Positions 1,880 to 33,195 of a stretch of 34,858 nucleotides of DNA are shown in pieces. The notes beneath the pieces were generated by a model. That model had not been told where the DNA came from. It searched no databases and saw nothing but the letters and a program-made list of their open reading frames with translations. Every line of letters begins with the position of its first letter. The stretch's first letter is position 1. The position numbers and the translations under genes were made by a program. The DNA comes from a virus: positions 1-34,858 of IMG/VR virus record IMGVR_UViG_3300042691_029420; one strand, written 5' to 3'.

Positions 1880-3256
1880 ATGAGCAAATACAGAAAAATT
1901 AAAGAACAAATAGATTACGGAGACTATCCTGAAAGAATGGATCCTAACTTAGAGAGAAAATTGAGAGACCCTCAAGGGATGTATGCACAAAATCCCGCAT
2001 TCAAAAGAGGTGAAAAAGATGTACAAAAAATAATGTCCGCTAGATTTAAGACTGTTGTTGATAATTTGAGAAGAGCAACAGGACAACCAAATTTAAGTAG
2101 CCAACAGGTTAAATCTATGATTTTTTCTCAAATGATGAGTAGCGTGCAAAATGTAATGAGAATTGAATCTAGATATAAAGAACAATTGGAATCTATAGCA
2201 ATTGAACACGGAATAAAACAAGTCCAAATTGATCCTGATGAAGTTGTAATTGAGGCATATCTTAATAGATCACCAATAAATGTATCAAATTTTAGATATA
2301 GAGAAGAAGATAAAGATGTTAAAGATACTGAAGAAGATGATGATAATGATGGATCGGAAGAAGAAAAAATAAAACAAAACTATGGCTCATTTGATATTGA
2401 AGACTTAACAGATGAAGAAGAGTTTGATCTTGAGGTTCATAAAAGAGATATTGTTAATGCATTAATTCAGGGTTCCGCAAAATTAGGTCATTATTTATTT
2501 ATGAAGCCTGAAGTTAAGAGTCAAGTTGACGATATTGATCCTTCTTTATATAGGCAATACCAAATTATTATGGCGGCTAACGATTTTTTGTATTTTAGTA
2601 TGGAAAATATGATTGAAGCAATGAGTGAAACTGGACAAGGTGTTGCTGGTAAGGTTGAATTGGAAAATATTGACTCCGAAGAAAGTGGTGAAGAAAGTGG
2701 TGAAGAAAGTGGTGAAGAAAGTGGTCCCGACACTAAAGTAAAGGCGTATGGTATGATATTTCCAATACTGTGTCACGAAGTTGTAAAAGGATTGGAAGAA
2801 GTACAAGGAAGACATTCGTACAGTGAAAAACCAGGAATGGCGGGTAGAGTTTTAAGAAAAACAGACGTTTTATCAAAAGAACCGATGCAATTAAGAATTG
2901 GGCCTGAATTGGTTACTAAACTTAATATGGCGTTACCCGATGAAGTTTTTGAACCTGAAAATTATGGTTTAATGAGATGGTTTAAAATTATTCTATACAA
3001 AAAACCGGCTAAAGAATTTTTGGAAATTTTTGAAAATTTAATATCCGAAAAAATGGATATTTTAAAGAAAAAATTCGAAGAAATTTTAGAAGAAGCCAGA
3101 GAAAGTAAAAAAGAATACGAAGAATATAGAGAATATGAAAAAAATAAAGGAAGTTATTCATCTGAAACAGATGACGATGATGATAACAACGATGATGATG
3201 ACGATGATGGATTTGACGATCTTTTCAGTGGTTTAGGAATCACAAGAAGTAAATAA
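1880..3256 (+). CDS. Large hypothetical structural protein with acidic low-complexity segments, 458 aa
   Basis: Starts seven bases after the preceding stop, with the A-rich leader AAAAAGTT and no Shine-Dalgarno. Residues 1-140 look helical. An acidic Asp/Glu stretch follows near 145-185. A central helical domain (190-255) leads to four GEES repeats, then a folded-looking region (about 285-400) and a coiled-coil-like segment. The protein ends in a poly-Asp tail followed by DDLFSGLGITRSK. No enzyme motif is visible. It is the last gene before a strong terminator at 3262-3290, and so closes the first plus-strand unit. It may be a virion or assembly protein; I cannot match it to a T4 gene. Confidence 0.75.
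   Translation: MSKYRKIKEQIDYGDYPERMDPNLERKLRDPQGMYAQNPAFKRGEKDVQKIMSARFKTVVDNLRRATGQPNLSSQQVKSMIFSQMMSSVQNVMRIESRYKEQLESIAIEHGIKQVQIDPDEVVIEAYLNRSPINVSNFRYREEDKDVKDTEEDDDNDGSEEEKIKQNYGSFDIEDLTDEEEFDLEVHKRDIVNALIQGSAKLGHYLFMKPEVKSQVDDIDPSLYRQYQIIMAANDFLYFSMENMIEAMSETGQGVAGKVELENIDSEESGEESGEESGEESGPDTKVKAYGMIFPILCHEVVKGLEEVQGRHSYSEKPGMAGRVLRKTDVLSKEPMQLRIGPELVTKLNMALPDEVFEPENYGLMRWFKIILYKKPAKEFLEIFENLISEKMDILKKKFEEILEEARESKKEYEEYREYEKNKGSYSSETDDDDDNNDDDDDDGFDDLFSGLGITRSK
2678..2725 (+). repeat. Four tandem copies of a 12-bp unit
   Basis: GAAGAAAGTGGT is repeated four times perfectly and in frame, encoding EESG four times. It is a coding microsatellite-like expansion inside the 458-aa protein and probably acts as a flexible acidic linker. 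Confidence 0.9.
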
Positions 3257-3302: not shown

Positions 3303-5072
3303 ATGGGATTTACAAAAGAACAATTAATAGTTGAATACACCAAGTGTATTAAGAATACACCTTATGCGTTAAAAACGTATTTACAAACCTACGATAATAC
3401 TGTTTCTCAATACGTTCCTTTAGAACTTTTTCCGGATCAGGAAAGTTTACTTCAGGATTATGAGAATTATAATGAAAACATTGCCTTGAAATATCGTCAG
3501 GCGGGGGTATCAACCGTAACTGCTGCTTGGGTTTCAAAGAAACTGGCTTTTGCACAAAAAAAGAAACCGGAAAAAATATTGATAATTGCGAACAAATTGG
3601 ATACCGCCATTGAGATGGCAAATAAGGTTCGTGCCTTTACTGAACAATGGCCTAAATGGGTTGGAATTGATTTTTCAAAAGAAAAAGATTCACAAAGACA
3701 TTACAAATTAAATAATGGTTGTGAGGTTAAAGCGGTTGCAACATCAAAGGATGCTCTTCGTGGTTATACTCCTACTATTCTTATTTTTGATGAGGCCGCT
3801 TATATTGAGGCTGATAGTGATTTTTGGGCGGCTTGTATGGCCTCTCTTTCTACCGGTGGTAAAGTTATTGTTATTTCAACACCTAACGGATTTGACCCCA
3901 TTTATTACGAAATATACGATCAAGCTCTCAGAACTATGAATGAGTTCAAAATATCTGAGATGTATTGGTTTAAAGATCCAAGATATACCAAAGACCTTAA
4001 ACTTATTAAAGTTGAAGATCTAATACATTACTTCCTTAATAGAGAAGATTATAAAAATATTGATATAATTGATTATTCTGACAAAAAGTTTACCGAAAGA
4101 AATTTTGATGAAATAAAAGCTAAAATTGCACAAGGGTATAAACCAACCTCAACTTGGTTTGAGGGAATGGTTAAAAAGTTAAAATTTGATAAACGTAAGG
4201 TATCTCAAGAGTTGGAGTGTAATTTTTTGGGATCCGGTGATAACGTATTTGACCCGAAACTTCTTCAAGATATTCATCATAATTTCATAAAAGAACCTGA
4301 AAATAAAATGATGGGTGGTTCTTTATGGATGTGGAAGGAACCGAAAGCGGATCACAAATATATTCTTGGTATGGACGTATCAAGAGGAGATTCTGAAGAC
4401 TTTACATCTATCGTTATAATTGATTTTGATGAGAGAGAACAAGTGTTAGAATACTTGGGTAAAGTTCCTCCTGATGTTGCAGCCGAGATTGCTTATAAGT
4501 GGGGGATGATGTACAATGCATTTATAGTTATTGATATCACGGGAGGTATGGGTGTTTCAAGTGCAAGAAAATTACAAGAGTTAGGATATAAAAATTTATA
4601 TATAGACAATATTGAGGCGAATAATCCTTGGAAATATAACGCAAAATTACTTGATAAAATACCCGGGATAAACTTTAATAATAAAAGAGTTCAAATCATC
4701 GCATCTTTCGAAGAAGCCATAAGACACGGATTTAAGATTTATAGTCAAAGATTGTTTAATGAAATGAATACTTTCATTTACATAAATGGAAGACCGGATC
4801 ACCAAAAAGGTCATCACGATGACTTAATTATGGGAATATCAATGGCGATTTATGTTGGGGAAAGCTCATTTTCACAACTTAAAAAAGTAGGGGAACAAAC
4901 AAAAGCAATGCTTGAATCTTGGACAGTTACTTCAAATGAAAATGTATCTAAACAAGTCGCATTTAATCCTGTAATTCCTTCAGGTCCTATGATGGGTAAT
5001 CAAAGATCTTTCACCGAACCATCGAGGAAAGATTATGAAACTTACGGATGGTTATTTGGTGGTAGACGATAG
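3303..5072 (+). CDS. 17: Terminase large subunit, gp17-like packaging ATPase-nuclease
   Basis: This 589-aa protein is close to T4 gp17 in length. It drives ATP-dependent packaging of DNA into the prohead and cuts the concatemer. The N-terminal ATPase has a P-loop region at residues 63-71 (KYRQAGVST), Walker B ILIFDEA at 159-165 and the coupling motif STPNG at 192-196. The C-terminal RNase H-like nuclease has the expected acidic residues: D358 in LGMDVSRGD, D411 in VIDITGG and D506/D507 in HHDDLIMG. The P-loop lacks the usual GK[ST] lysine; K63 at its front may substitute, as in some other terminases with a deviant Walker A. The portal gene follows directly, and the sheath and tube genes that separate the two in T4 are absent here. 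Confidence 0.96.
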   Translation: MGFTKEQLIVEYTKCIKNTPYALKTYLQTYDNTVSQYVPLELFPDQESLLQDYENYNENIALKYRQAGVSTVTAAWVSKKLAFAQKKKPEKILIIANKLDTAIEMANKVRAFTEQWPKWVGIDFSKEKDSQRHYKLNNGCEVKAVATSKDALRGYTPTILIFDEAAYIEADSDFWAACMASLSTGGKVIVISTPNGFDPIYYEIYDQALRTMNEFKISEMYWFKDPRYTKDLKLIKVEDLIHYFLNREDYKNIDIIDYSDKKFTERNFDEIKAKIAQGYKPTSTWFEGMVKKLKFDKRKVSQELECNFLGSGDNVFDPKLLQDIHHNFIKEPENKMMGGSLWMWKEPKADHKYILGMDVSRGDSEDFTSIVIIDFDEREQVLEYLGKVPPDVAAEIAYKWGMMYNAFIVIDITGGMGVSSARKLQELGYKNLYIDNIEANNPWKYNAKLLDKIPGINFNNKRVQIIASFEEAIRHGFKIYSQRLFNEMNTFIYINGRPDHQKGHHDDLIMGISMAIYVGESSFSQLKKVGEQTKAMLESWTVTSNENVSKQVAFNPVIPSGPMMGNQRSFTEPSRKDYETYGWLFGGRR

Positions 5073-5108: not shown

Positions 5109-6944
5109 ATGGAGCAGAATAATAAAAATATGACAATTTGGCAACGACTTTCGACAGCGTTTGGTCCAAATTCATTACTGAATCAGGATTACCCAACATT
5201 CAGATATGACAAGAAAGAATTATTAAAAACCACAAACCAACAAGAATACGAAAAACAAAAATTACAAGCGCAACAAACCGTATATCTTGCAAATCAGTGG
5301 ACAAAAATTGAAAATAACTTATACACGCAAGGGGTTTATTTCGAACCAACAAGATTAGCATCCTACTACGATTACGAATCAATGGAATATACTCCCGAAA
5401 TATCTGCAGCTCTGGACATATACGCCGAAGAATCCACAACAACGAGTGAAAATGGATTTGTTCTAAAGATTTATTCTGAATCAAGAAGAATTAAAGGGGT
5501 TTTGGCTGACTTATTCAACAATGTTTTAGACATCAATACAAACCTCGTAATGTGGACAAGAAACACCTGTAAATACGGTGATAACTTTGTTTATTTGAAA
5601 TTAGACCCGGAAAAGGGAGTTGTTGGTTGTGTTCAATTACCAAATATTGAAATTGAAAGGGTTGAAAGAAGTATGAAGGGTAAATCCAATTTAAATCAAC
5701 AAGGTGGTGAAAATGAACAAAAGGCTCTTAAATTCCATTGGAAAGATAAAAATATGGAATTTAACACTTGGGAAATTGCTCACTTTAGATTACTTGGTGA
5801 TGATAGAAAACTTCCCTATGGAACATCAATGCTTGAAAAGGCGAGAAGAATTTGGAAACAACTTTTATTATCCGAAGATGCAATGTTAATTTACAGAACA
5901 TCAAGAGCACCTGAAAGAAGAGTGTTTAAAGTGTTTGTTGGTAATATGGATGATAAGGATGTTGAAGCGTATGTACAACGTGTTGCAAATAAATTCAAAA
6001 GAGACCAAGTAGTTGATTCTAAAACCGGTAATGTTGATTTAAGATTTAATCAAATGGCGGTAGATCAGGATTATTTTATTCCTGTTAGGGATACCGCACA
6101 GGCCTCCCCAATTGAAACTTTAGCGGGTGCTCAAAACCTTTCAGAAATTGCTGATATTGAATATATCCAAAAGAAATTATTAACCGCATTAAGAGTTCCA
6201 AAAGCGTTTTTAGGGTTTGAAGAAGTGGTTGGTGATGGTAAAAATCTTTCATTACAAGATATTCGTTTTGCAAGAACCATTAATAGAATTCAAAAAAGTA
6301 TGTTGTCGGAATTAAATAAAATTGCAATCATACATTTATTTTTACTTGGTTTTGAAGACGAACTTTCAAACTTTGTTCTCACACTTAACAATCCATCAAC
6401 TCAAGCTGATCTTCTTAAAGTTGAAGTATGGAAAGAAAAAATAACACTATATAAAGATGCTGTGGCAATGATAGATGGTATTGCACCTGTTTCACAATCT
6501 TGGGCTAAAAAGAATATTCTTGGATTCTCAGATGAAGAAATTAAGCTTGACATTCAACAACAAAGAATTGAAAAGGCGGTCGCCAAAGAACTTGAAAACA
6601 CACCAAATGTTATTATGAAAACAGGTATATTTGACAACATTGATAAATTATATGGTACTACAACAGGAACTACTGGAGGTGGAACCGCAGTTGAGGGTGG
6701 CGGTGAAGGTGGCGGAGGAGGTGCTGAACCGGCAGGATTAGGAGGTGCCCCTCCTGATATGGGAGGATCTGAACCACCTGGAGGAGAGGCTGGTGGGTTA
6801 ACTCCGGAATCAAAACAAGATAATTTAAACATATTATTAGAGAGTGATGATATGTTATCAGAAGATTCATTTATTGATTTATCAAAAGGAAAAAATTCTT
6901 TAGGATTAATTGAACAAGAATTAGACAAACTTCTAAATAGTTAA
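5109..6944 (+). CDS. 20: Portal vertex protein, gp20-like
   Basis: This 611-aa protein corresponds to T4 gp20, the dodecameric portal at the head vertex through which DNA is packaged and to which the neck attaches. Family-typical features include YTPEISAALDIYAEEST near residue 95, a helix-rich stem and wing region, and the conserved LRVPKAFLGFEE...NLSLQDIRFART segment near 355-390. It is longer than T4 gp20 (524 aa), mainly because of a Gly/Pro-rich disordered tail at about 518-568 followed by an acidic helical C-terminus. Two other in-frame methionines occur only further in; the ATG at 5109 keeps the conserved N-terminus. Placement between terminase and prohead protease supports the call. 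Confidence 0.95.
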   Translation: MEQNNKNMTIWQRLSTAFGPNSLLNQDYPTFRYDKKELLKTTNQQEYEKQKLQAQQTVYLANQWTKIENNLYTQGVYFEPTRLASYYDYESMEYTPEISAALDIYAEESTTTSENGFVLKIYSESRRIKGVLADLFNNVLDINTNLVMWTRNTCKYGDNFVYLKLDPEKGVVGCVQLPNIEIERVERSMKGKSNLNQQGGENEQKALKFHWKDKNMEFNTWEIAHFRLLGDDRKLPYGTSMLEKARRIWKQLLLSEDAMLIYRTSRAPERRVFKVFVGNMDDKDVEAYVQRVANKFKRDQVVDSKTGNVDLRFNQMAVDQDYFIPVRDTAQASPIETLAGAQNLSEIADIEYIQKKLLTALRVPKAFLGFEEVVGDGKNLSLQDIRFARTINRIQKSMLSELNKIAIIHLFLLGFEDELSNFVLTLNNPSTQADLLKVEVWKEKITLYKDAVAMIDGIAPVSQSWAKKNILGFSDEEIKLDIQQQRIEKAVAKELENTPNVIMKTGIFDNIDKLYGTTTGTTGGGTAVEGGGEGGGGGAEPAGLGGAPPDMGGSEPPGGEAGGLTPESKQDNLNILLESDDMLSEDSFIDLSKGKNSLGLIEQELDKLLNS

Positions 6945-6953
6945 TATTTATTA
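6945..6953 (+). promoter_or_regulatory. Late-promoter-like box TATTTATTA
   Basis: A one-mismatch version of the motif begins right after the portal stop. TATTTA ends 16 bases before the ATG at 6967. Confidence 0.5.
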
Positions 6954-6966
6954 TAAAATTAAAACT

Positions 6967-7671
6967 ATGGAATTCGGTTTATTAAAATCTAAAATAGAAA
7001 AAAAGTTAAGTGATTCATATATGAATGAATCATTCAAAAAAGAATTTGCAACTTTCAAAAAGTTAGTATTAGAAAATGAATCTTTAAGTAAAGCATTTCA
7101 CATATACAATGAATTAGGTGAAAAAAAGGGTTATAATGATAGGTTTGCGGAAGATTTTTTAGAAGAATGTGTCGATCTATATAATAGATTGGAAGTTGAA
7201 GAAAAATCAATTTTTTTATTAAATAAATGGGTTAAAAATGTAGTGACCGAAAATAATTATAAAACTATTGACACAGTATTAAACACTAATTCTGTACTAG
7301 TTGAAGAGAGAATTAAATCAAAAAATCAAATTTTAGAAAATCTTAAAAGTAAAAAAGAAGAAAAAAAATCTATTAATATTCCAATAGAAAAAATGGTTGA
7401 GATTGCAAATAAAAACTTGAACAATCATTTATCACAATTATCTGAATCTGAAGTTAAACAAATAAAGAAATACACATCTCTCTCAAAAGATGAATTAAAT
7501 AAAAGATATGAAGTTATTAGTGAAATGGTATTTGAAAAGTTAGAAATACTATCAAAATCATCAGATAATGAAACTAAACAAAAAATTGACGAAACTGTAA
7601 AAAGAATAAAAACTCAAGACATCAATACTTTAAGTTTTATTAAACTTAAATCATTGAATGAAACATTATAG
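6967..7671 (+). CDS. Helical hypothetical protein between portal and protease, 234 aa
   Basis: No family is recognised. Lys/Glu-rich composition and long predicted helices suggest an elongated or coiled-coil protein, without signal peptide or membrane segment. The slot between portal and prohead protease is filled in T4 by the small prohead core proteins gp67 and gp68, so a core or scaffold-associated role is plausible from position alone. It contains several (L/I)-x-E tripeptides, the recognition pattern of T4-type prohead protease, but in such a Glu-rich protein these could be chance. Its 3' end overlaps the convergent bS21 gene by six bases. Confidence 0.8.
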   Translation: MEFGLLKSKIEKKLSDSYMNESFKKEFATFKKLVLENESLSKAFHIYNELGEKKGYNDRFAEDFLEECVDLYNRLEVEEKSIFLLNKWVKNVVTENNYKTIDTVLNTNSVLVEERIKSKNQILENLKSKKEEKKSINIPIEKMVEIANKNLNNHLSQLSESEVKQIKKYTSLSKDELNKRYEVISEMVFEKLEILSKSSDNETKQKIDETVKRIKTQDINTLSFIKLKSLNETL

Positions 7672-7857
7672 TTTACCCGAAATAAATTTCTGTTTGTAAA
7701 TTGCTTTTTTCTTTTGAGTTCTTAATACAACTGACTTTTTTGTATATTCTTTTTTGTCTCGTAAAATCTCGTTTTGCTTGGACTTAATAACTTTTTGTTT
7801 CAGGATTTTAAGTCCTCTCTCCAAATTTATACTTTTATCAAGATTTATTATTATCAT
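7666..7857 (-). CDS. rpsU: Ribosomal protein bS21 homologue, 63 aa
   Basis: Small, very basic protein with the bS21 layout: N-terminal beta strand MIIINL, a helix containing NLERGLKILKQKVIKS, then ILRDKKEYTKKSVVLRTQKK and the final helix KKAIYKQKF. These match the family pattern of ALKRFKRK, a LRRR-YxKPS-like middle, and a C-terminal KxKAIYKQ as found in Bacteroidetes S21. bS21 binds the 30S platform next to the anti-Shine-Dalgarno end of 16S rRNA. Phage-encoded bS21 is known from other viral genomes and is thought to enter host ribosomes. The gene is antisense within the head module, convergent with the 234-aa gene and divergent from the 151-aa gene. A weak TATTTCTAT box lies at 7863-7871. 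The family call is by eye. Confidence 0.82.
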   Translation of the reverse strand: MIIINLDKSINLERGLKILKQKVIKSKQNEILRDKKEYTKKSVVLRTQKKKAIYKQKFISGKL

Positions 7858-7954
7858 ATAATATAGAAATATCTTAATATTATAAAAAGTTTTTGACTAA
7901 CGAATATTATTTTCATATTTTTTCATAAAATAAACTTTATTAACATGAAAATTA

Positions 7955-8410
7955 ATGAAAAAAGGTAAAAACCTTAAAATTGCCGGACATAAGTCCTTCA
8001 AAATTAACTACGGAACTGTCGACTCAAAAAATTTAAAATCCATTTATCTTAACATCCAAACTTGGGCTGAACCAAAAAAAGAAATTTTAACTCCAATTAG
8101 ATCTGTAAATCTACTTTCAAGAGAAATCAAACACACAATTTACAACGTATTAGATAAAAATTTATTCAATGAAAAATTCATTGTTGATCTTGATTTGAGA
8201 TCAAGTGGGATACAATTAGGAAAAAAATCATTTCTAAATTTAGAATGTATTTTATATCCAAAAATAGAAGATGATTTTAAGTCCTATAAATTGAAAAATG
8301 AAATAAAAAAAATATGTGATTCAATAATAAAATATAATTTTTTAAATTCTGAATCTTATAATTTCACACTAACAAAAAAGGATAAAGTGATTACAGAAAT
8401 AAATAATTAA
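7955..8410 (+). CDS. Hypothetical protein in head module, 151 aa
   Basis: No family recognised. It is a basic, compact protein with alternating beta-like stretches (FKINYGTV, SIYLNIQTW, FIVDLDLRSSGIQLG) and a helical C-terminal part. The motif LRSSGIQLGKKSFLNLECILYP in the middle looks like a conserved core. The ATG at 7955 is preferred; an earlier ATG at 7945 is in another frame and closes after a few codons. It lies between portal and protease and is followed by a TATTTATAT box, so it is probably a late protein involved in head assembly or a virion component. This is inference from context. Confidence 0.75.
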   Translation: MKKGKNLKIAGHKSFKINYGTVDSKNLKSIYLNIQTWAEPKKEILTPIRSVNLLSREIKHTIYNVLDKNLFNEKFIVDLDLRSSGIQLGKKSFLNLECILYPKIEDDFKSYKLKNEIKKICDSIIKYNFLNSESYNFTLTKKDKVITEINN

Positions 8411-8440: not shown

Positions 8441-9169
8441 ATGAAAATATTAGCACCAAATGAGGTCGGTAAAGGTATTCTTATTGAATACGATGCCGGA
8501 TATGTATCACCAACAGAAAAGCATAATTTAGAATTTTTATCTGAATCTAAAAATTTTTTAGATTATTCAAAACCCTTTGAATTTTATGCTGTTCTACAAA
8601 AGTATAATACACCAAATAGAAACGGAAGAATATACCCGGAAAAGATTCTTAAAAGAGAATCTGAAAACTATAAAAAAATGATTCAAAAAGGGACAGCACT
8701 TTCTGAATTAAATCACCCCGAATCATCTTTAATTGACTTGGATCGTGTATCACATCTCATTACTGATGTATGGTGGGAAGGTAATATTCTTATGGGTAAA
8801 TTGAAATTATTAACCTCACCCGGATTTCACGAAAGAGGTATAATTTCCTGTAAAGGAGACATGGCGGCGAACTATTTAAGACAAGGTGTTACATTAGGAA
8901 TCTCTTCAAGAGGAGTTGGATCACTTGCAAAAAAAGGTGATCAAAATGAAGTACAAGATGATTTTGAATTAATTTGTTTTGACTTAGTTTCATCACCATC
9001 AACCCCTGGCGCTTATTTGTTTTTGAATGCTGAAGATAGAAATAAGTATGAAGAAAATTTAGAAGAAGAAAAACAAATTAAACAAAGTAGAATCACTGAT
9101 ATGGAAACATCCCAATCAAATAAATCATTAGATTTAATGAAAAAATTGGATAGTTTTTTAAATAGGTAG
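8441..9169 (+). CDS. 21: Prohead core protease, gp21-like
   Basis: This 242-aa protein is the size of T4 gp21 (212 aa) plus a short tail. It would be the serine-type maturation protease that cleaves scaffold and capsid proteins inside the prohead, typically after (L/I)-x-E. The signature is clear: TPNRNGRIYP near 57-66, ALSELNHPE with the likely catalytic His92, the core LLTSPGFHERG, and GISSRGVGS at 153-161 with the likely nucleophile Ser155 or Ser156, followed by FDLVSSPSTPGA with D181. The C-terminal tail is charged and probably removed by self-cleavage. It is followed by the DUF4494-like gene and then scaffold and capsid genes, the classical T4 order 21-22-23 with one insertion. Confidence 0.95.
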   Translation: MKILAPNEVGKGILIEYDAGYVSPTEKHNLEFLSESKNFLDYSKPFEFYAVLQKYNTPNRNGRIYPEKILKRESENYKKMIQKGTALSELNHPESSLIDLDRVSHLITDVWWEGNILMGKLKLLTSPGFHERGIISCKGDMAANYLRQGVTLGISSRGVGSLAKKGDQNEVQDDFELICFDLVSSPSTPGAYLFLNAEDRNKYEENLEEEKQIKQSRITDMETSQSNKSLDLMKKLDSFLNR

Positions 9170-9583: not shown

Positions 9584-11050
9584 ATGGCAGAAAAAAAATC
9601 TTTAGTAGAAGAAACATTACTCCAAATGAAAGATTTGGAAAATGTAATTTCTGAAAACGCAAAAGGAATACTTCAATCTACAATGAAAGAAGAAATCGGA
9701 GAATTAGTAAAAGAATCCTTAATGGAACAGGATGATGAGACAGATGTTGAACCGGAAGAAGACGAAATGGATGTGGATGATGAATCAGATGTTGAAGACG
9801 CCGAAGATGATACGGAAGTTGAAGACGAGGTTGAAATTGACACTGATATAGAAGACACAGACATGGAAGATGACTCAGAAGATGATTTTGAAATGGATAA
9901 TGCTATGGGATTATCTGATGAGCCTATCGATTTGACCGGAGCTTCTGATGATGAAATACTCAAAGTTTTCAAAGGTATGGGAGAAGAAGATGGAATTATC
10001 ATTAAAAAAGATGATAATGTAATTAACTTGGAAGATACCGAAGAAGACGTTCATTACAAAATTCAAATGGGAGAATCTGATGAAGATTATTTCTCAGATG
10101 AATATAGTGATGAGGATGAAGGATTTGTAACAGGAGGTGATATGTTCTCCGAAGAATCTGATGACGAAATGGGTGAAGTAGTTTATGAAATTGAAATGGA
10201 CGATGAATTATCTGAAATGGAAGACGATGAATTATCTGAAATGGAAGATGAAGTTGTTTATGAAATTGAAATGGACGAAGAATCCGATGAAGAATTAGAT
10301 GAAATGTCTGATGAAGAATTAGATGAAGAATCTGATGAAGATTATTTAGAAGAAGCTTTCAAAGCGAAAGGTGTAAAGGGTGGAAAACCTAAATTTCAGT
10401 ACAAAAAAACAACAGGAGGATTTAAAGAAAAAATGAAACAAGGTCCTAAATCTGTTGGTACAGGAAGTGCTAAGAAATTTAAATATGGTCAAGGTGAAAA
10501 TGCCGGTGATAAGTTAGGTAAAAATAAAATTGTTAAAAAAATAGAAACTAAAGAAGCTTCAAGAACTTTAGGTGCTGGTAGATATTTCGGTAAGAAAGGT
10601 TTACCAAAACCAAAAGCCGCTCCAAGACATCTTAGAGTCGAATCTCAAGAAGTTGAATTAAATTTACTAAGAGAAAAAAATGAAGAGTATAGAAAAGCTC
10701 TTAATTTATTCAGAGGTAAACTAAATGAAGTTGCTGTTTTCAATTCAAACTTAGCTTACGCAACAAGATTATTCACTGAACACTCCACAACCAAGCAAGA
10801 AAAAATCAACATCTTAAGAAGATTTGATTCTGTTGAAAGCTTAAAAGAGTCAAAATCTCTTTACAAAATAATAAAAGATGAACTTTCATCTCAAAAAACC
10901 AAAAATCCAACAAAGGGATCTATTCAAGAACAAATTGAAAGAACTCCTTCTTCTGGTTCTGCGGTTAGCTTAATTGAGTCAAAAACTTATGAAAATCCTC
11001 AATTTATGAGAATGAAAGATTTGATGGTAAAAATGAACATCAAAAAATAA
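9584..11050 (+). CDS. 22: Prohead scaffold protein, gp22-like
   Basis: This 488-aa protein lies in the T4 gp22 position, just before the capsid gene. It has two distinct parts. Residues 1-265 are extremely Asp/Glu-rich after a short helical start, with tandem repeats of DDELSEME and two copies of VVYEIEMD. Residues 266-350 are basic and Gly/Lys-rich. The part from about 355 is helical, with EVELNLLREKNEEYRKAL then VAVFNSNLAYATRLF, typical of the coiled-coil core of T4-type scaffolds. Many (L/I)-x-E tripeptides (LSE, LDE, LEE, LME) would let the prohead protease cut it into small acidic peptides, as T4 gp22 is. It is longer than T4 gp22 (about 270 aa) because of the acidic arm. The assignment rests on context and composition. 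Confidence 0.85.
   Translation: MAEKKSLVEETLLQMKDLENVISENAKGILQSTMKEEIGELVKESLMEQDDETDVEPEEDEMDVDDESDVEDAEDDTEVEDEVEIDTDIEDTDMEDDSEDDFEMDNAMGLSDEPIDLTGASDDEILKVFKGMGEEDGIIIKKDDNVINLEDTEEDVHYKIQMGESDEDYFSDEYSDEDEGFVTGGDMFSEESDDEMGEVVYEIEMDDELSEMEDDELSEMEDEVVYEIEMDEESDEELDEMSDEELDEESDEDYLEEAFKAKGVKGGKPKFQYKKTTGGFKEKMKQGPKSVGTGSAKKFKYGQGENAGDKLGKNKIVKKIETKEASRTLGAGRYFGKKGLPKPKAAPRHLRVESQEVELNLLREKNEEYRKALNLFRGKLNEVAVFNSNLAYATRLFTEHSTTKQEKINILRRFDSVESLKESKSLYKIIKDELSSQKTKNPTKGSIQEQIERTPSSGSAVSLIESKTYENPQFMRMKDLMVKMNIKK
10199..10249 (+). repeat. 24-bp tandem duplication in the scaffold acidic arm
   Basis: The unit GATGAATTATCTGAAATGGA plus four bases occurs twice head to tail (10202-10225 and 10226-10249), identical except for the final base. 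A second in-frame duplication, GATGAAGAATTAGATGAA, follows at about 10285-10330. Both extend the acidic arm and add LSE or LDE sites. Confidence 0.8.
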
Positions 11051-11074: not shown

Positions 11075-12883
11075 ATGGGTGCATTATTAGAAAGTGGTCT
11101 CGTTGGTAACATTGGTTTAAAACACCTTAAAGTTATTAAAGAAGACACAATTGGAAAATGGGACAAACTAGGATTCTTAGATGGTCTTAGAGGTCACCTT
11201 AAAGAGAACGTTGCTCAGTTATATGAAAACCAAGCATCATTCTTAATTAACGAAGCTTCTTCTACAGATTCTTCTGGTTCTTTTGAAACAGTTGTATTCC
11301 CTATCGTAAGAAGAGTATTCTCTAAACTTTTAGCTAACGATATCGTGTCTGTACAAGCTATGAACTTACCTATCGGTAAATTATTCTACTTCGTTCCTAA
11401 AATTCAGGGATATAGTGGAGGAACTGATACGAGAAGTGGTGAACACAGAGCACCAATCGGATCTCCCGGAAACTATCCTGGTATTAGTGACGCTGGTTAC
11501 ACAGACTCTACAGGTGGTTACAAGAAAAATCTTTATGATTTATTCTATGAAGGTTCTGAACCTACATTAAATCCTGCTGGTTTGTTTGACTATTCAAAAG
11601 GTCAATGGACTGCAATCACTCAACCAACAACAGTTGTAGAATGGAGCAATGGTGATTTAGTTCCAACTAACTCAATCACAGGTGAACAAAGAAAGATCTT
11701 GATCAAAATGTGTGGATTCAATGATACCGGATATGGTAAATTGATCGGACCTGATGGTTCTGAAATGGATACTGAGACATTCCTTTCTGATCTTCACATC
11801 GTAGCAGGAACAGGTTTAACATTAGAAGCTGGTTGTGTTGACACAGCTGCAAGCGCATTACCTTTCAGAGTTGTAACTCAGAAATATGGTAAAGGTATTG
11901 TTAATCCTAACTACAACACACCAACTACAAGTTGGCCTAATACAAGTGGCGGTAAATATACTGATGTTTGTAATGTTGAGGGTTGTATTATCCTTGAAGT
12001 TGACCTTCAATGTCCTGTATGTATAAGCTGCGGACAAAGTTCTCCTGACGGATACAGTGGCGCTACAGTAACAGAAGCATTATCCGGATCTTCTTTCACA
12101 GCTGTTTTCAGAAGATATCAAGAGCTTGAATTTGAAGATAAAATCGGAGAAGTTTCTTTTGATCTTGAATCAGTAACAGTTTCTGTAACTGAAAGAAAAT
12201 TAAGAGCACAATGGTCTCCTGAATTGGCTCAAGACGTTGCGGCTTTCCACAACATCGACGCTGAAGCTGAACTTACAGCATTACTTTCTGAGCAAGTTGC
12301 TGCTGAGATCGATAGAGAAATCTTAAGAGATCTTAGAAAAGGTGCGGCTTGGACTTTAAGATGGGATTACAATGGTTGGAAGAGACTCGGTTCTACAACA
12401 TCTTATACTCAAAAAGATTGGAACCAAACTCTTATCACCGCAATCAACCAAGTTTCTGCACAGATTCACAAATCAACTCTTAGAGGTGGTGCTAACTGGA
12501 TCGTGGTTTCTTCTGAAATCAGTGCAATATTTGATGATCTCGAGTATTTCCACGTTTCAAACGCTTCTCCTGAGCAAGATCAATACAACATGGGTATTGA
12601 AAGAGTTGGTACTTTAGCAGGTAGATACCAAGTTTATCGTGATCCTTACTTCCCACCAAACACAGTATTGATGGGTCACAAAGGTACATCACTTCTTGAC
12701 ACTGGTTACATCTACGCTCCATATGTACCTCTTCAATTAACACCTACAATGTACAATCCGTTCAACTTTACTCCTATCAAGGGTATTATGACGAGATACG
12801 CTAAGAAAATGGTTAACAACAGATTCTACGGACGTATCCAAGTTGATGGTGTTAGAACATTTGATCTTCAAGAGTTGAGATAA
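11075..12883 (+). CDS. 23: Major capsid protein, gp23-like
   Basis: This 602-aa protein forms the hexameric head lattice. The family hallmark is at about 373-417: ERKLRAQWSPELAQD, then HNIDAEAELTALLSEQ and EIDREIL, closely paralleling T4 gp23. Further conserved stretches include NWIVVSSEISAIFDDL and the C-terminal RYAKKMVN...YGRI. A likely maturation cleavage lies after E60 in FLINE-ASST, close to the T4 site at E65, and fits the (L/I)-x-E rule. Compared with T4 gp23 (521 aa) it carries extra sequence between about 125 and 335, including five Cys (299, 304, 313, 316, 319) with the pattern CPVCISC. Codons ending in C (AAC, TTC, ATC) are more frequent than in neighbouring genes, as expected for very high expression. 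The leader is A-rich without Shine-Dalgarno. Confidence 0.97.
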   Translation: MGALLESGLVGNIGLKHLKVIKEDTIGKWDKLGFLDGLRGHLKENVAQLYENQASFLINEASSTDSSGSFETVVFPIVRRVFSKLLANDIVSVQAMNLPIGKLFYFVPKIQGYSGGTDTRSGEHRAPIGSPGNYPGISDAGYTDSTGGYKKNLYDLFYEGSEPTLNPAGLFDYSKGQWTAITQPTTVVEWSNGDLVPTNSITGEQRKILIKMCGFNDTGYGKLIGPDGSEMDTETFLSDLHIVAGTGLTLEAGCVDTAASALPFRVVTQKYGKGIVNPNYNTPTTSWPNTSGGKYTDVCNVEGCIILEVDLQCPVCISCGQSSPDGYSGATVTEALSGSSFTAVFRRYQELEFEDKIGEVSFDLESVTVSVTERKLRAQWSPELAQDVAAFHNIDAEAELTALLSEQVAAEIDREILRDLRKGAAWTLRWDYNGWKRLGSTTSYTQKDWNQTLITAINQVSAQIHKSTLRGGANWIVVSSEISAIFDDLEYFHVSNASPEQDQYNMGIERVGTLAGRYQVYRDPYFPPNTVLMGHKGTSLLDTGYIYAPYVPLQLTPTMYNPFNFTPIKGIMTRYAKKMVNNRFYGRIQVDGVRTFDLQELR

Positions 12884-12902: not shown

Positions 12903-12934
12903 AAAGGAGACAAGAAATTGTCTCCTTTTTTTTT
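12903..12934. terminator. Terminator after the capsid gene, possibly bidirectional
   Basis: An 11-bp perfect stem (AAAGGAGACAA / TTGTCTCCTTT) is capped by a GAAA tetraloop and followed by nine T. It ends the scaffold-capsid unit. The convergent minus-strand gene stops at 12933, so the hairpin may also end that transcript, although the T-run in that direction is poor. Confidence 0.9.
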
Positions 12935-13301
12935 AATATAAAATTTGATTGTGTTTTTTTAGAATTCTGTATCCTAACCCTATACGAGGTTCAATTTGTG
13001 GAATTGAAAATGAGATTAAATCTTTTATCTCAAATAATATTTCATTATTTTCACCTTCCAATTTTACATTATCAAAATATTTGTATCGATTTTTATCAAA
13101 ATCGGATTTAATTTTTGCGAACGATGATTCAAATGAAATTAATTCATCCATCATTTTTTCTAAATGAAGTAAGTGGGGTGATAAAATTTTGTGATGAAAA
13201 TCTTCATCTACTTTCTGTAAATAAGAAAAAAGTAGGTATTCTTTATATTCAGAATCTATAGGAGATTCAACATACCAAGTTAGAGATAATAAGTTTTCCA
13301 T
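12933..13301 (-). CDS. Hypothetical protein, 122 aa
   Basis: No family is recognised. The protein looks helical: an N-terminal segment LSLTWYVESPIDSEYKEYLLF, a long charged middle (HLEKMMDELISFESSFAKIKSDFDKNRYKYF) and the C-terminal motif IEPRIGLGYRILKKH. No transmembrane or signal segment. It has its own TATTTATAT box on the coding strand at 13314-13322, which supports it as a real late gene. The upstream 86-aa gene stops just before this box. Convergent with the capsid gene. Confidence 0.7.
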   Translation of the reverse strand: MENLLSLTWYVESPIDSEYKEYLLFSYLQKVDEDFHHKILSPHLLHLEKMMDELISFESSFAKIKSDFDKNRYKYFDNVKLEGENNEILFEIKDLISFSIPQIEPRIGLGYRILKKHNQILY

Positions 13302-13322: not shown

Positions 13323-13583
13323 TTATTCTTCTTCTATTTGTGTTGTAGGTGAATTAAATGATATTTTTCTTAAAGCTTTAGATAATACTTCTGTCTCAGT
13401 CAAGGTGAATGCATTTCTTTTATATGCTGACTGACACGCTTGAATTAAACAATATAGTGCTTGTTCGTTGTTAAGTTCCGTTATAAACTTATCTAAATCC
13501 TCAATTTTATAATAATTTATTGAGTCAAATAACACACCAATTGGTGATTCTTCACTACCTAATAGTTTATTAATGTCTGACAT
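13323..13583 (-). CDS. Hypothetical protein, 86 aa
   Basis: Unrecognised, mostly helical and acidic. It has a central YLIxACQSAYKRNAF-like stretch (residues about 45-60) followed by TETEVLSKALRKISF, resembling a small helical-bundle protein. It starts 46 bases from the divergent plus-strand gene at 13629. The shared spacer contains one box, which reads TATTTATAA toward the plus gene and TATAAATA (the T4 orientation) toward this gene, so which gene it serves is open. Confidence 0.65.
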   Translation of the reverse strand: MSDINKLLGSEESPIGVLFDSINYYKIEDLDKFITELNNEQALYCLIQACQSAYKRNAFTLTETEVLSKALRKISFNSPTTQIEEE

Positions 13584-13628: not shown

Positions 13629-14300
13629 ATGTCCACTAATAAAAAGATTTTCAACGAAGCTACATCTACAGGGGATGTTGGTAATTTCAGAAATCCTTTA
13701 GTCATCGGCACAAGATTTTGGGAAAAAACCGAATTAGAACCATTTATAGATAGTGTTTCAAAATTTCATAACCCCCAACTTGCATACGACAGTTATGATG
13801 GTAAATTAAATGTTAGTAAAAAAAAGGCGAAAGAGATGGAAAAACAATCTGATAAGATGTCAAAGTATATTCAAAAAAATAATAAAAATAACGATGATGA
13901 TGGTAATAATTTAAATGGTGGAAATGGTCCTAAAGTTAAAACTAAATCTTTAAATGAAGATTTGGGTGTATGGTTTGGAACTAAGAAAAAACCTAAAGGT
14001 AGTTCTCAACCAAAAGGTCCGTGGGTTAATATATGTAGAAAAAAAGAGGGTGGAGGTCATCCCCCTTGTGGTAGACCGGAGGCTGAATCAAAAGGTTATC
14101 CAAAATGTAGAGCCGCGGGTGTTGCCGCAAAAATGACAGATGCGCAGAAAAGATCGGCATGTCAACAAAAAAGAAAGGCAGAAAAATCAAATCCAAAAAC
14201 AGGAACCGGAAACAAACCTAAAATGGTTAGTTATAAGCCAAAAAAAGAATCAGTAATAGAAAATTTAATTCAAAAAGTTCTAAATAGGTTGATCGGATAG
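13629..14300 (+). CDS. Virion-type protein with a four-Cys DUF5872/DUF6321-like module, 223 aa
   Basis: The N-terminal part (1-60) contains NFRNPLVIGTRFWEK and HNPQLAYDSYDGKLNVSKKKAKEM. A low-complexity Asn/Gly/Lys linker follows. At about 105-185 is a small module starting LNEDLGVWFG and containing GPWVNICRKK, PPCGRPEA, GYPKCRAAG and RSACQQKRKAEK, with Cys at 136, 147, 160 and 178. I recognise this kind of module from phage and giant-virus proteins (DUF5872 or DUF6321 type; exact family name uncertain). The spacing could bind a metal. The C-terminus is basic, then helical (VIENLIQKVLNRLIG). Function unknown; a DNA-associated head protein is a possibility. Its 3' end overlaps a convergent gene by 21 bases. 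Confidence 0.75.
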   Translation: MSTNKKIFNEATSTGDVGNFRNPLVIGTRFWEKTELEPFIDSVSKFHNPQLAYDSYDGKLNVSKKKAKEMEKQSDKMSKYIQKNNKNNDDDGNNLNGGNGPKVKTKSLNEDLGVWFGTKKKPKGSSQPKGPWVNICRKKEGGGHPPCGRPEAESKGYPKCRAAGVAAKMTDAQKRSACQQKRKAEKSNPKTGTGNKPKMVSYKPKKESVIENLIQKVLNRLIG

Positions 14301-14705
14301 TTTATTTAGTATGTTTTTCAATGAATGTTTTATGTTGGATTCAATTTCTTTTTCTAACTCTATTCTTTTTCTATCAATTTCCTGATCTATTAATTGATTT
14401 ATTTCTGTAAGATACTCATCATTTTCAAAATAAACATTATGACTATAAATGTGATTTATTAGTGTCACCATTCTATTTTCTATAACAATAAACATTTTTT
14501 GATTGTCATTTTTTATGTATCTTTTGTTTGAAATAGGTGCAATCGTCAGTTGAGAATCTTTGAGAGAGATGAGTTTTTTACATATTTCATAACATATTGA
14601 TTCCTCTTCCTCAACCGGTCTTTTCGGATCAAATTTACTTTTCAGATAAAGATATATTTTAAATAATATTTTTGGTATATATCCCACAATTTCATTATTT
14701 TTCAT
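14280..14705 (-). CDS. Hypothetical protein, 141 aa
   Basis: No family recognised. A short N-terminal amphipathic region (IPKILFKIYLYLKSKFDPKR) is followed by a mixed domain (SICYEICKKLISLKDSQLTIAPI, MFIVIENRMVTLINHIYSH) and a charged C-terminal coiled-coil-like helix (IDQEIDRKRIELEKEIE). No clear late box precedes it. It is convergent with the Cys-module gene and divergent from the FKBP gene, in an island of alternating strands, which suggests an accessory gene gained independently. Confidence 0.65.
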   Translation of the reverse strand: MKNNEIVGYIPKILFKIYLYLKSKFDPKRPVEEEESICYEICKKLISLKDSQLTIAPISNKRYIKNDNQKMFIVIENRMVTLINHIYSHNVYFENDEYLTEINQLIDQEIDRKRIELEKEIESNIKHSLKNILNKLSDQPI

Positions 14706-22210: not shown

Positions 22211-22966
22211 TTAGTTTTTTAAAACATCACTCAAAATATTGAGATATAATTTTTTATACTTTTTCATTGCACTTCGTATCTCTTTGGTGGTTAAGTTTGT
22301 CATTTCTCTTAAAGATAAAAGAACTATATTTTTGTTAAACTTATTATTGTCGGTTGCCGAAAACATAGTTTCATAGTTTTCAAATATTTCCAATAATGCA
22401 ATACCTAACTTTTTTTCATTATCATTCAATTGATTTTTATCAATGAATAATCTTAAATCACATTTGAAATCATTAATCAAAGTTTCTGTGCTTAATTCAT
22501 CCGATTCAATTTTATATGAAAATCTAACATCCTCTTCTAATGACGCGGATATATCTTCATATGAAATTTTCCTATTCATTTCTTTTTGGTCTTTTATTAT
22601 TTGACCCATCAAATAATTTTTACAAATGGTGCCAAAATAGGAATAGGCCTTTTTTTCTTTAGCTGGTTTGAACTTATCTATCTTTGTCATCAGGAAGGAA
22701 TGTGTATCGGCATGAATTTCTTCAAAATCCATATCTTTCCTGTATAACTTATATCTTCGTATTATTGAAGATATCATTTTATCCAAAGGATCTCTTAAGT
22801 ATTGATTATAAATTTTGTTTCTACCCTCAAATGTATCTTCTAATAAGAACATTCTAACGGCCATTTCTTCTGTTGTATCAAAATAATTTTCTTGTTTTGA
22901 TCTTCTACCTCTTTTTTTTGTTTCATTACTTATAGAAATTCCTGAAGTGATTTCTTCGGATTTCAT
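22211..22966 (-). CDS. 55: Late-transcription sigma factor, gp55-like
   Basis: The 251-aa protein resembles T4 gp55-type sigma factors: IYNQYLRDPLDKMISSIIRRYKLY, then DFEEIHADTHSFLMTKIDKFKPAKEKKAYSYFGTICKNYLMGQIIKDQK is the reduced sigma-70 region 2 (core RNA polymerase binding and -10 recognition). The C-terminal part (EMTNLTTKEIRSAMKKYKKLYLNIL) resembles a helix-turn-helix. In T4, gp55 directs host polymerase to late promoters with the sliding clamp and gp33. The start is the ATG at 22966, which overlaps the previous stop as TAATG; an ATG at 23038 would extend 72 bases into the upstream gene. Its place before the first late box of the tail operon fits. Confidence 0.88.
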   Translation of the reverse strand: MKSEEITSGISISNETKKRGRRSKQENYFDTTEEMAVRMFLLEDTFEGRNKIYNQYLRDPLDKMISSIIRRYKLYRKDMDFEEIHADTHSFLMTKIDKFKPAKEKKAYSYFGTICKNYLMGQIIKDQKEMNRKISYEDISASLEEDVRFSYKIESDELSTETLINDFKCDLRLFIDKNQLNDNEKKLGIALLEIFENYETMFSATDNNKFNKNIVLLSLREMTNLTTKEIRSAMKKYKKLYLNILSDVLKN

Positions 22967-23775
22967 TAAATTTGAGGGATGTAATTTAGTTGTCTCTCGT
23001 CTTTGAAGAAATATTCTTTTTTCGCCGATTCTATCCAAAACTTAACTTCGTTTTCAGTTAATACATCGTCTCCGTTTTTATAATTCCAAAAGATAGATCC
23101 TTCTCTGAGATTGACGTGTTTATACCCTAATCTAGGGATTGTCATAATTTTAACAGAATTAAATGTTAACCTTAATAAAAATTCGTAAATAAATGTCAAT
23201 TTGAAATTGGTTTTGAAACCTCCAAAATCTTCAATAACTTCCTTATTAATAACCATACCAGCTGTTTGGAAATTTTGAAAACTATGGAGAGTGTCATTAG
23301 TTAAATATCCAACTTCCTGACTAAAATTACTTGCAAATGTTGCCTCATTAGTAAATCCTGCGAACATACCTTTATCGTCAACATCAATAACAATAGGTAA
23401 GAAGGCTTTAACCTCTTTATATACTTCCATATATTTTTTTACATTATCAAACCATATGTTAGAATACTCATCGTCAAACTCAAAAAAAGAAACCCATTTT
23501 GATGCTGAATTTTCAATCCCGTAGTTTACTTGTTTGGAAAAATTAGGATCTTGAGTCCATTTAATTTTTTTAACATTAAGAGATCCAAAATCATAATCCT
23601 TTAATTTGTTTTCTAATAATTCTTCATCAGTATGAACGATTACTAGTTCATTTATTTGAACCTTTTGATTAATTAAAGAATCAATTGCCTTTTTGAAATA
23701 ATCATCAAAATCCTTAGCAGTTGCAGTTTTAATTGGTAATATTACAGATACATCAATTTTATTTTCCATTTTCAT
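22966..23775 (-). CDS. Family 2-like glycosyltransferase (GT-A), 269 aa
   Basis: N-terminal strand IDVSVILPIKT, a helix and SLINQKVQINELVIVHTDEE follow the GT2 nucleotide-binding fold. ASKWVSFFEFDDEYS near residue 95 provides the DxD-like metal and sugar-nucleotide motif (FDDE). The acceptor part includes FQTAGMVINKEVIEDFGGF, a pattern common in GT2. It would transfer a sugar from a nucleotide-sugar to an unknown acceptor. The start overlaps the preceding GT-B gene by 17 bases; an in-frame Met two codons later (23769) is an alternative. It is coupled to gp55 by TAATG, so expression precedes late genes. Confidence 0.85.
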   Translation of the reverse strand: MKMENKIDVSVILPIKTATAKDFDDYFKKAIDSLINQKVQINELVIVHTDEELLENKLKDYDFGSLNVKKIKWTQDPNFSKQVNYGIENSASKWVSFFEFDDEYSNIWFDNVKKYMEVYKEVKAFLPIVIDVDDKGMFAGFTNEATFASNFSQEVGYLTNDTLHSFQNFQTAGMVINKEVIEDFGGFKTNFKLTFIYEFLLRLTFNSVKIMTIPRLGYKHVNLREGSIFWNYKNGDDVLTENEVKFWIESAKKEYFFKDERQLNYIPQI

Positions 23776-24823
23776 CGTATTTTAATTTGTTTAATTGTTC
23801 AGTGAATGATTTTTCTCTTGTATTCAAGTAATCAGAAAATAATTCAACAACTTTGTTTTCAAAAATTTCTTTTGTCGGACTATTTTGAATTGTTTTTTCC
23901 ATATTATCATATAATTCTTGGTTAATATTATCTTCTAACCAATTTTGTAAAAAGTCGGCGGTAAAATCAGGAATTTTAATATCTTCATTTACCCATATTC
24001 CATTTTCCGGTGTTAACCAATGAGGGTATAAAGACGGTATTTTACCAATTACCGGAACACCACATTTCATTGATTCTAATGGGAATGTTCCATATCCACT
24101 AGTTTCATCAATCCAAATACTTAAAAAACAATCTTTCAAATAATTTGCAAAATCATTTTCTGATAAACCTCTCATATCTCTAAAGGTCACCCATCTATAT
24201 TGTGGAAATTTAAGATAAAATGATTTTATGAAGTTTATTGTTTTTCTTGGATCTCTTGAATGAACCGCAACGAAAGGTTTTGCAGGATATTTTGATTTTT
24301 CAAAAGATTCTGATATCATCGGTGTTAAAACATCAATAGAAATATTTCTCATTATTGTAGAAATGTATTCTTTTTGGAATTCAGATGTTGTAATACATTT
24401 AAAGAACCCATAATTAACCCATCCAAACCCGGGTTGTAACGTTTCTAACATATGGTCGTATGCCTGACACAATACAATTTTCCCACAAGGAAGATCTTTT
24501 AATTGTTCCATAACATAACCATAAATCTCAGGAATTAAAATAAGATCTTCAGGTGAAACCTCTAAGTTTTGACCCTCGATTGATTTATGGGGTAATTCCA
24601 TATAATCCTCACTTAACCATTCGGCAACTCCTGAGTAATCAGGTTTTTCGTGTAGAATAATTGGATTATATCCATTTTTCAAAAGAGCCAATCCAATTTG
24701 ATACGTGTATCTAACACTCGCCTTTGGATTACCTTTTGTGTCTTGAACAAACAAGTAAATTCTTGCTTTTTTTTCTTTTAAAGTTTCAATTGATTTTTCT
24801 AATTTTTCTATTCTGTTGTCCAT
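23759..24823 (-). CDS. GT-B glycosyltransferase (GT4-like), 354 aa
   Basis: After an N-terminal coiled-coil-like helix (1-20) the protein has the GT-B pattern: KARIYLFVQDTKGNPKASVRYTYQIGLALLKNGY (N-terminal Rossmann domain), GKIVLCQAYDHMLETL in the linker and, in the C-terminal domain, FVAVHSRDPRKT, LSIWIDETSGYGTFPLESMKCGVPVIGK. The last resembles the E-x7-E nucleotide-sugar motif of GT4 enzymes. Acceptor unknown. Located in the tight non-structural operon, it overlaps the GT2 gene and follows a 92-aa unknown gene by four bases. Confidence 0.85.
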   Translation of the reverse strand: MDNRIEKLEKSIETLKEKKARIYLFVQDTKGNPKASVRYTYQIGLALLKNGYNPIILHEKPDYSGVAEWLSEDYMELPHKSIEGQNLEVSPEDLILIPEIYGYVMEQLKDLPCGKIVLCQAYDHMLETLQPGFGWVNYGFFKCITTSEFQKEYISTIMRNISIDVLTPMISESFEKSKYPAKPFVAVHSRDPRKTINFIKSFYLKFPQYRWVTFRDMRGLSENDFANYLKDCFLSIWIDETSGYGTFPLESMKCGVPVIGKIPSLYPHWLTPENGIWVNEDIKIPDFTADFLQNWLEDNINQELYDNMEKTIQNSPTKEIFENKVVELFSDYLNTREKSFTEQLNKLKYDENGK

Positions 24824-24827
24824 ATTA

Positions 24828-25106
24828 TCAATATGATTTTATAATTTTTTTATTTAATAGTGTATTGAACGCCATTCTGAAAGGGATTGAGAGATGTTTT
24901 GCACTTTTAGATCCTAATGATTCGTCTATTTCTTCACCGGTATCCATTAATACTTCTAACATTAATTTTATTGTCTCATATCTCACAATGTTGATATGAT
25001 GTTCATATGTTATACCGGATGAACCATCTACATTTATTAAAACATATTTATCAATTTCGTCCATATCAATAAAATAATGTTCGTTCATAATTTCAATCAT
25101 ACTCAT
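24828..25106 (-). CDS. Hypothetical protein, 92 aa
   Basis: Unrecognised small, mildly acidic protein. The pattern IDKYVLINVDGSSGITYEHHINIVRYETIKLMLEVLMDTGEEIDE suggests a strand-helix fold; the C-terminal LSIPFRMAFNTLLNKKIIKSY is helical. It overlaps the upstream HAD-like gene by one base (TAATG) and is followed after four bases by the GT-B gene, so it is clearly part of the operon. Function cannot be inferred. Confidence 0.7.
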   Translation of the reverse strand: MSMIEIMNEHYFIDMDEIDKYVLINVDGSSGITYEHHINIVRYETIKLMLEVLMDTGEEIDESLGSKSAKHLSIPFRMAFNTLLNKKIIKSY

Positions 25107-25753
25107 TAATTTAGGTTTTTAATTATATTTTTGAACTCCTTAAATGATGAAATTGAGTGTTCCGTTTTAATTTCTTCGTTATATGAAGTTTCAAACTTAA
25201 TAATAAGTTTATTTTTAGGATAATTCAATAATAAGTCAGGATTCGCAGTAAGTAAAATGTCTAATTCATCCCATAATGAATTTTGCGTTGAATTACTAAA
25301 GAATTTTATTTTTTCTAATAAACAACCGAATTTAGAAAGAAAAAATAATGTTGCGGGTTTTGATTTACCTATCTCATCAGACACTATTAACATGTCGTGA
25401 GATTCTCTAAAATCTAAATAGAAATCGTTTAAGTCGTTCATACTTGAAATTTCAGTTGACCCTGCATGACCAAAAATTTGCATAGGGAATTCTCTATACA
25501 TAAAGTCATACAATTCTTCGTCAGATTGAAACGCGAAATGTTTTTTCAAGTTTAAAGAATTTACATCACTTAAGATTTCGTATTTAAATGGTTTTGTTAG
25601 TTGAAGTTCCGTATTACCTGAATTATCTAACTCAAAGGTTTCCACATTTACAAATTCATCTTGATAATTCTCAATCAAATGTTTTTCATAAAGTTGGGTA
25701 AACTTACCGATAGTATCCCTTAAAACTCCATTCACATCAATTGCTATTCTCAT
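25106..25753 (-). CDS. HAD-like hydrolase fold protein, 215 aa
   Basis: Starts MRIAIDVNGVLRDTI, which fits HAD motif I (DxDGTxxD) with the nucleophile D6 but Asn in place of the second Asp. Further HAD-like features are SHDMLIVSDEIGKSKPATLFFL (Ser and Lys motifs II-III) and LWDELDILLTANPDLLL (acidic motif IV). Cellular relatives are nucleotidases, phosphatases or polynucleotide-end enzymes. The D-to-N change at the acid-base position could weaken or alter phosphatase activity. It overlaps phoH by 17 bases and the 92-aa gene by one. A role in nucleotide metabolism is plausible. Confidence 0.75.
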   Translation of the reverse strand: MRIAIDVNGVLRDTIGKFTQLYEKHLIENYQDEFVNVETFELDNSGNTELQLTKPFKYEILSDVNSLNLKKHFAFQSDEELYDFMYREFPMQIFGHAGSTEISSMNDLNDFYLDFRESHDMLIVSDEIGKSKPATLFFLSKFGCLLEKIKFFSNSTQNSLWDELDILLTANPDLLLNYPKNKLIIKFETSYNEEIKTEHSISSFKEFKNIIKNLN

Positions 25754-26489: not shown

Positions 26490-26498
26490 ATTATTTTT

Positions 26499-27227: not shown

Positions 27228-27236
27228 TTTTTTTTT

Positions 27237-27788: not shown

Positions 27789-27797
27789 AAATTTATT

Positions 27798-28379: not shown

Positions 28380-28471
28380 TTTCTAAGTTTTTTTATAATA
28401 ACAATTTAATATAGATCAACCAATGTGTAAAGTTTTTAATTATATTTTAATAGAAATTAACTGATTGCCGG
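28380..28471. other. Largest gap in the glycosyltransferase block
   Basis: 92 bases without a gene between two minus-strand genes. It is A/T-rich, with TTTACA-N-TTGG-like sequence on the minus strand at about 28425-28432 that might be a host-type promoter. I see no TATTTATA box and no hairpin terminator. A promoter for the downstream methyltransferase gene is possible but unsupported. Confidence 0.3.
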
Positions 28472-32487: not shown

Positions 32488-32488
32488 A

Positions 32489-33190: not shown

Positions 33191-33195
33191 TTAAT

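Follow-up and report, generated by a model that had tools for sequence, protein, structure and literature searches.

A phage gene for ribosomal protein bS21 lacks the feedback Shine-Dalgarno sequence that most related bacteria use

Introduction

Genes for ribosomal protein bS21 in viruses have been known for some time. Chen et al. 2022 (ISME Commun., PMC9723584) described them in freshwater Bacteroidetes jumbo myophages with genomes of 293 to 331 kb. In these phages, bS21 is encoded on the reverse strand and flanked by two hypothetical genes, within the region that runs from the terminase large subunit (TerL) through portal and protease to the major capsid protein (MCP). The article also reports an aromatic residue 54 (Tyr54), a divergent helix 1, which it places over the mRNA path, and late transcription of bS21; it puts forward the hypothesis of preferential phage translation and mentions encapsidation of bS21 as possible. 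In another host phylum, the likewise phage-borne bS21 of pelagiphage HTVC008M was incorporated into E. coli ribosomes, which were then ~5% active in vitro (Mizuno et al. 2019, PMC6375957).

Another close system is the host gene rpsU of Flavobacteriales, as described for Flavobacterium johnsoniae. In McNutt et al. 2023 (PMC9976891), bS21 of this bacterium is autoregulated: ribosomes without bS21 expose the anti-Shine-Dalgarno (anti-SD) and translate rpsU via an extended Shine-Dalgarno (SD) sequence. Such ribosomes thus prefer rpsU, and they translate SD-less mRNA less well.

Here, we analysed a 34,858-base IMG/VR fragment (the window, meaning this whole stretch of DNA), in which an initial annotation had recognized a reverse-strand bS21 gene and proposed a takeover of translation. 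Gene order, reverse strand, Tyr54, late transcription and the takeover idea are not new, all of them being found in Chen et al. (PMC9723584). The real addition is that phage bS21 genes lack the feedback SD that most related bacteria use, an absence of which we found no mention for phages in the passages searched of Chen et al. 2022 and McNutt et al. 2023. We also count among the new points a phage-specific helix-1 motif and two clades nested among bS21 carriers that have apparently lost the gene.

Results

The 63-aa product of the reverse-strand ORF, MIIINLDKSINLERGLKILKQKVIKSKQNEILRDKKEYTKKSVVLRTQKKKAIYKQKFISGKL, is a genuine bS21 under selection. The Pfam profile Ribosomal_S21 (PF01165) matched residues 4 to 56 (profile 2-54/55) with 27.1 bits (E 3.5e-6), a marginal pass of its gathering cut-off of 27 bits. 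The NCBIfam equivalog model TIGR00030 gave only 15.5 bits against a cut-off of 28.95, and we therefore consider the window bS21 divergent. When PDB chains were searched with phmmer, the top matches were bS21 proteins of Bacteroidota ribosomes, including F. johnsoniae 7jil, and they aligned end to end. The KKAIYKQ stretch with Tyr54 is found as well, in good agreement with the Bacteroidetes type assigned initially. The rRNA-contact residues R46, K51, A52 and Y54 are all in place, Y54 being the aromatic residue that packs on the anti-SD. A search of the window for a second bS21 found none. A chance ORF is excluded, since the gene occupies the same place and strand in relatives and is under purifying selection among phage copies (median pairwise dN/dS 0.146, none above 1).

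The gene sits inside a T4-like head module, on the opposite strand, as had been annotated; the gene order is TerL, portal, 234-aa gene, bS21 (reverse), 151-aa gene, protease, probable scaffold and MCP (Table 1). The 234-aa gene and bS21 are arranged tail-to-tail and overlap by 6 nt at the stop codon of the former, while bS21 and the 151-aa gene diverge head-to-head with 97 nt between them. "Antisense" thus means opposite strand here, the coding overlap being just 6 nt. This orientation is not unique to bS21, because three more reverse-strand genes lie beyond the capsid gene (12933-13301, 13323-13583 and 14280-14705). Neither is the location new, as the initial annotation had supposed: the phages of Chen et al. 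(PMC9723584) have the same arrangement and the same Tyr54 and divergent helix 1, and FKBP, PhoH, dUTPase and sugar-related genes occur in both, although the window is a fragment far shorter than the genomes of that group. A PHROG search with the acidic 488-aa protein gave no match, and a tRNA scan found none.

Table 1. Positions of the head-module genes, promoter-like elements and candidate sigma factor in the window
Feature	Position	Strand	Basis or remark
Terminase large subunit (TerL)	3303..5072	+	phrog_2, E 5e-41
Portal protein	5109..6944	+	phrog_213, E 1e-69
TATTTATT, late-promoter-like element of 234-aa gene	6945..6952	+	14 nt before ATG
234-aa conserved gene	6967..7671	+	alignment; preceded by a TATTTATA-type element in 93/93 loci
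bS21 gene, 63 aa	7666..7857	-	stop codon 7666-7668; PF01165, PDB bS21 matches, dN/dS
TATTTCTA, promoter-like element of bS21	7864..7871	-	ends 6 nt before ATG; conserved GATATTTGTA-type element
TTTG-N20-TATTTTTT, Bacteroidota-type -33/-7 promoter of 151-aa gene	7892..7923	+	family statistics vs shuffles
151-aa conserved neighbour	7955..8410	+	positional match to "bS21_CN" of Chen et al.
Head maturation protease	8441..9169	+	phrog_207, E 1e-44
Acidic 488-aa protein, probable scaffold	9584..11050	+	position only; kept in relatives
Major capsid protein (MCP)	11075..12883	+	phrog_138, E 1.5e-64
Possible late sigma factor, 255 aa	22211..22978	-	phrog_234 "late sigma transcription factor" (T4-type), E 0.0017, weak

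All 13 closest IMG/VR relatives, taken from 20 loci retrieved with the bS21 protein, carry bS21 at the identical position on the reverse strand. Using the portal and 151-aa proteins as queries extended the family to 94 non-redundant loci in which the 234-aa gene, the 151-aa gene and the protease are present; bS21 is present at that position in 77 of them and absent in 17. The latter form two clades, each nested within bS21 carriers, and at least two changes are forced by the tree. Since the tree is unrooted, this count alone cannot tell gain from loss; one gain followed by two losses is apparently the simplest history. We looked for a bS21 moved elsewhere in 12 records of bS21-less phages, one of 261 kb and most of them fragments, and found none. 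Because both sister clades without bS21 retain the same head genes and spacing, bS21 is dispensable, and these clades represent natural controls. One bS21-carrying relative (L014) sits on a 192-kb contig. In a distant phage group (L016, L017, L019-L021), bS21 is co-directional with the head genes, between protease and capsid, and has a basic N-terminal extension.

The 151-aa gene is present in every bS21-carrying locus of the lineage. It is also kept in both bS21-less clades, and the idea that it is an obligate partner of bS21 was therefore rejected. In this it differs from the two bS21-less outgroups of Chen et al. (PMC9723584), where it was undetected. The AlphaFold2 model of the protein has a pLDDT of 90. 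Compared with the PDB by Foldseek, its fold gave a best E of 0.027 and nothing convincing; VIA gave Z values of up to 7.9, which are common according to the tool notes. The sole structural match was one uncharacterised myovirus protein (TM 0.80).

Comparison of the 76 phage bS21 genes revealed that R46 is invariant and K51 and A52 nearly so, and that residue 54 is aromatic in all. Helix 1 carries a motif of its own, namely, V/I23 (76/76), I24 (72/76), K/R27 (74/76) and Q28 (68/76), at sites where Flavobacteriales hosts have otherwise near-invariant F23, D24, G27 and T28. Judged from these alignments, phage bS21 retains the rRNA-holding end, while changes recur consistently in the helix that lies over the mRNA path.

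For each leader, SD strength was scored as the energy of its best pairing to the 3' tail of the 16S rRNA, and extended SD pairing below -13 kcal/mol was taken as the mark of an autoregulated rpsU. All 80 chromosomal rpsU genes of Flavobacteriales type that were sampled ranged from -17.5 to -20.7 kcal/mol, whereas the median of the 76 phage bS21 genes was -0.5 kcal/mol. A caveat is that the 80 had been selected for their resemblance to two bS21 sequences from Bacteroidota (F. johnsoniae 7jil and 9i5v). The window bS21 leader likewise gave -0.5 kcal/mol and lacks the extended SD of autoregulated rpsU. The phage gene thus shares the protein family and the anti-SD-holding residues with Flavobacteriales rpsU, but the latter is autoregulated through its extended SD (PMC9976891), while the former has no SD and a late-type promoter next to its ATG. 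Of the chromosomal bS21 genes closest to that of the window (41 to 46% identity), L306-L313 and L315 lay between -12.9 and -17.6 kcal/mol, the one exception in the group being a second bS21 copy. Across the whole phylum, 32 sampled loci, of which two were phage or duplicate entries and almost all were chromosomal, had a median of -12.7 kcal/mol and included several genes without a strong SD. Other, unrelated phage lineages with a different bS21 (L295-L304), several of them of Bacteroidota type, had no SD (-2.5 to +2.0 kcal/mol); a moderate SD is kept in L018 (= L261; -11.2 kcal/mol) and L305 (-13.0 kcal/mol), which both look unrelated.

On two-copy chromosomes, the bS21 copy adjoining a XerC-like gene has an SD and the other copy does not. 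Second SD-less copies away from the XerC-like neighbour were seen in L314/L316 (G133), L318 (G327), L320 (G103) and L322 (G382). Like the phage genes, those of L314, L318, L320 and L322 have no SD; L314 also has the phage residues V23, K27 and Q28, and the other three have K27. They differ in lying outside a head module and in having other neighbours, the L314 copy adjoining an NYN-LOTUS protein and a sigma-70 factor. An IMG/VR contig (L294) whose SD-less bS21 adjoins genes for XerC and a type I restriction subunit is probably chromosomal; it was first counted as viral and then excluded as probably bacterial.

A GATATTTGTA-type element was found no more than 8 nt from the ATG in 45 of the 76 phage bS21 genes, compared to 2.5% in shuffles. 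If transcription starts 4 to 5 nt past this element, as it does past the promoter element in F. johnsoniae (PMC6847099), the bS21 mRNA may be leaderless or nearly so. We rejected GTCAAA as the -33 box of bS21, since its other strand (TTTGAC) belongs to the promoter of the neighbouring 151-aa gene and remains when bS21 is absent. TTTG-N19..21-TAHHTTT precedes the 151-aa gene in 74% of loci with and 94% of loci without bS21 (0.5% in shuffles), the spacer being almost always 20.

TATTTATA-type elements occur at the 234-aa gene, protease and scaffold in 82 to 100% of loci, versus 7 to 14% in shuffles. Because of this prevalence, and because the window encodes a weak homolog of late sigma factors, these elements look like late promoters, and it is possible that the 255-aa protein reads them. 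As annotated initially, the late genes have no SD sequences. Leaderless mRNAs are possible for some of them: at TerL, the median gap between element and ATG is 4 nt, akin to bS21, and this spacing suggests that the TerL mRNA may be leaderless as well, while gaps of ~12 to 28 nt at the 234-aa gene, protease, scaffold and portal predict leaders of roughly 7 to 22 nt. A coupling between bS21 and leaderless late mRNAs, which had been proposed as new, was rejected as stated, since the presence or absence of bS21 makes little difference to the gaps at the 234-aa gene, protease and scaffold. TerL is the exception, with the motif in 63% of 38 loci with bS21 and in 0 of 6 without, the latter being a small sample.

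Discussion

We consider it probable (about 0.6) that an unregulated, late-expressed phage bS21 enters host ribosomes and keeps them replete for SD-less phage mRNA. A T4-like phage that infects Bacteroidota would make its own bS21 late in infection, driven by a late-type promoter of its own. The protein would then exchange into host 30S subunits and keep host ribosomes replete once host transcription stops, and replete 30S subunits would still be able to translate SD-less phage mRNA. Since the phage bS21 message does not depend on a free anti-SD, its translation would continue even when the ribosomes are full. The replete state would also damp translation of host rpsU, so that the host copy would be replaced more readily. 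A bolder version, which we hold only tentatively and doubt more than we believe, is that repeated capture of SD-less bS21 by Bacteroidota phages amounts to a one-way switch that locks the ribosome pool into the phage form: replete ribosomes would make phage bS21, the pool would be filled, and the ribosomes with a free anti-SD that rpsU needs would vanish.

Anti-SD occlusion alone, the takeover step suggested initially, cannot favour phage mRNA, because the host's own bS21 occludes it as well and most of the host's mRNAs have no SD either. The phage-specific helix-1 residues might also bias mRNA choice. Chen et al. and the initial annotation went further and envisaged specialised ribosomes that, owing to the altered helix 1, prefer phage late mRNAs. 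The phage-specific motif that replaces near-invariant host residues, the placement of helix 1 over the mRNA path (PMC9723584) and the late expression of bS21 are all in agreement with this, but we found no feature of phage mRNAs that could be selected: the late genes vary in spacing and are without an SD, the spacing at the 234-aa gene, protease and scaffold is much alike in relatives without bS21, and host mRNAs are likewise SD-less. We thus regard such a preference as rather unlikely. The ~5% activity of ribosomes with pelagiphage bS21 (PMC6375957) could instead point to a host shut-off, in which phage bS21 would poison or slow the initiation of host translation in general. That assay used a foreign host, however, and late timing coincides with the peak of the phage's own need for translation, while purifying selection on ribosome-contact residues favours a functional part; a general shut-off therefore seems improbable to us. 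Hardly credible, in our opinion, is an extra-ribosomal role such as RNA binding or packaging into the virion with the head module. The protein is small and basic, its gene is embedded among head genes, and encapsidation is called possible by Chen et al. (PMC9723584), yet the phage copies keep the residues for holding the 16S tail, other phages carry bS21 in different gene contexts, and the head genes remain without bS21 in two clades.

Some points also speak against our preferred reading of a phage bS21 that keeps host ribosomes replete. The only phage bS21 tested in vitro almost abolished translation (PMC6375957), and the protein could be an inhibitor. Two sister clades manage without bS21. 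The simplest alternative is that the phage merely captured the ORF and placed it behind its own promoter; the loss of the SD may reflect no more than this, since phage genes are without SD anyway. Moreover, some chromosomal rpsU genes of Bacteroidota, which may include that of the host, are also without a strong SD. Phage bS21 as a kind is published; the missing autoregulatory SD makes its function testable, and inexpensively so in F. johnsoniae, for which rpsU-gfp reporters and mutants of bS21 are already available.

Other features of the window

On the reverse strand, 22966-34410 encodes PhoH, dUTPase and an exonuclease, as well as a methyltransferase and several glycosyltransferase-like proteins. 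Upstream of the head module, a forward-strand gene at 950-1873 encodes a 307-aa protein with the stretch PRIDPRRNPNREAQPDERPKA in two copies. It is followed by a forward-strand ORF (1880-3256) for an acidic 458-aa protein with tandem ESGE repeats (2600-2740), which shows ~31% identity in relatives, compared to 80 to 90% for its neighbours.
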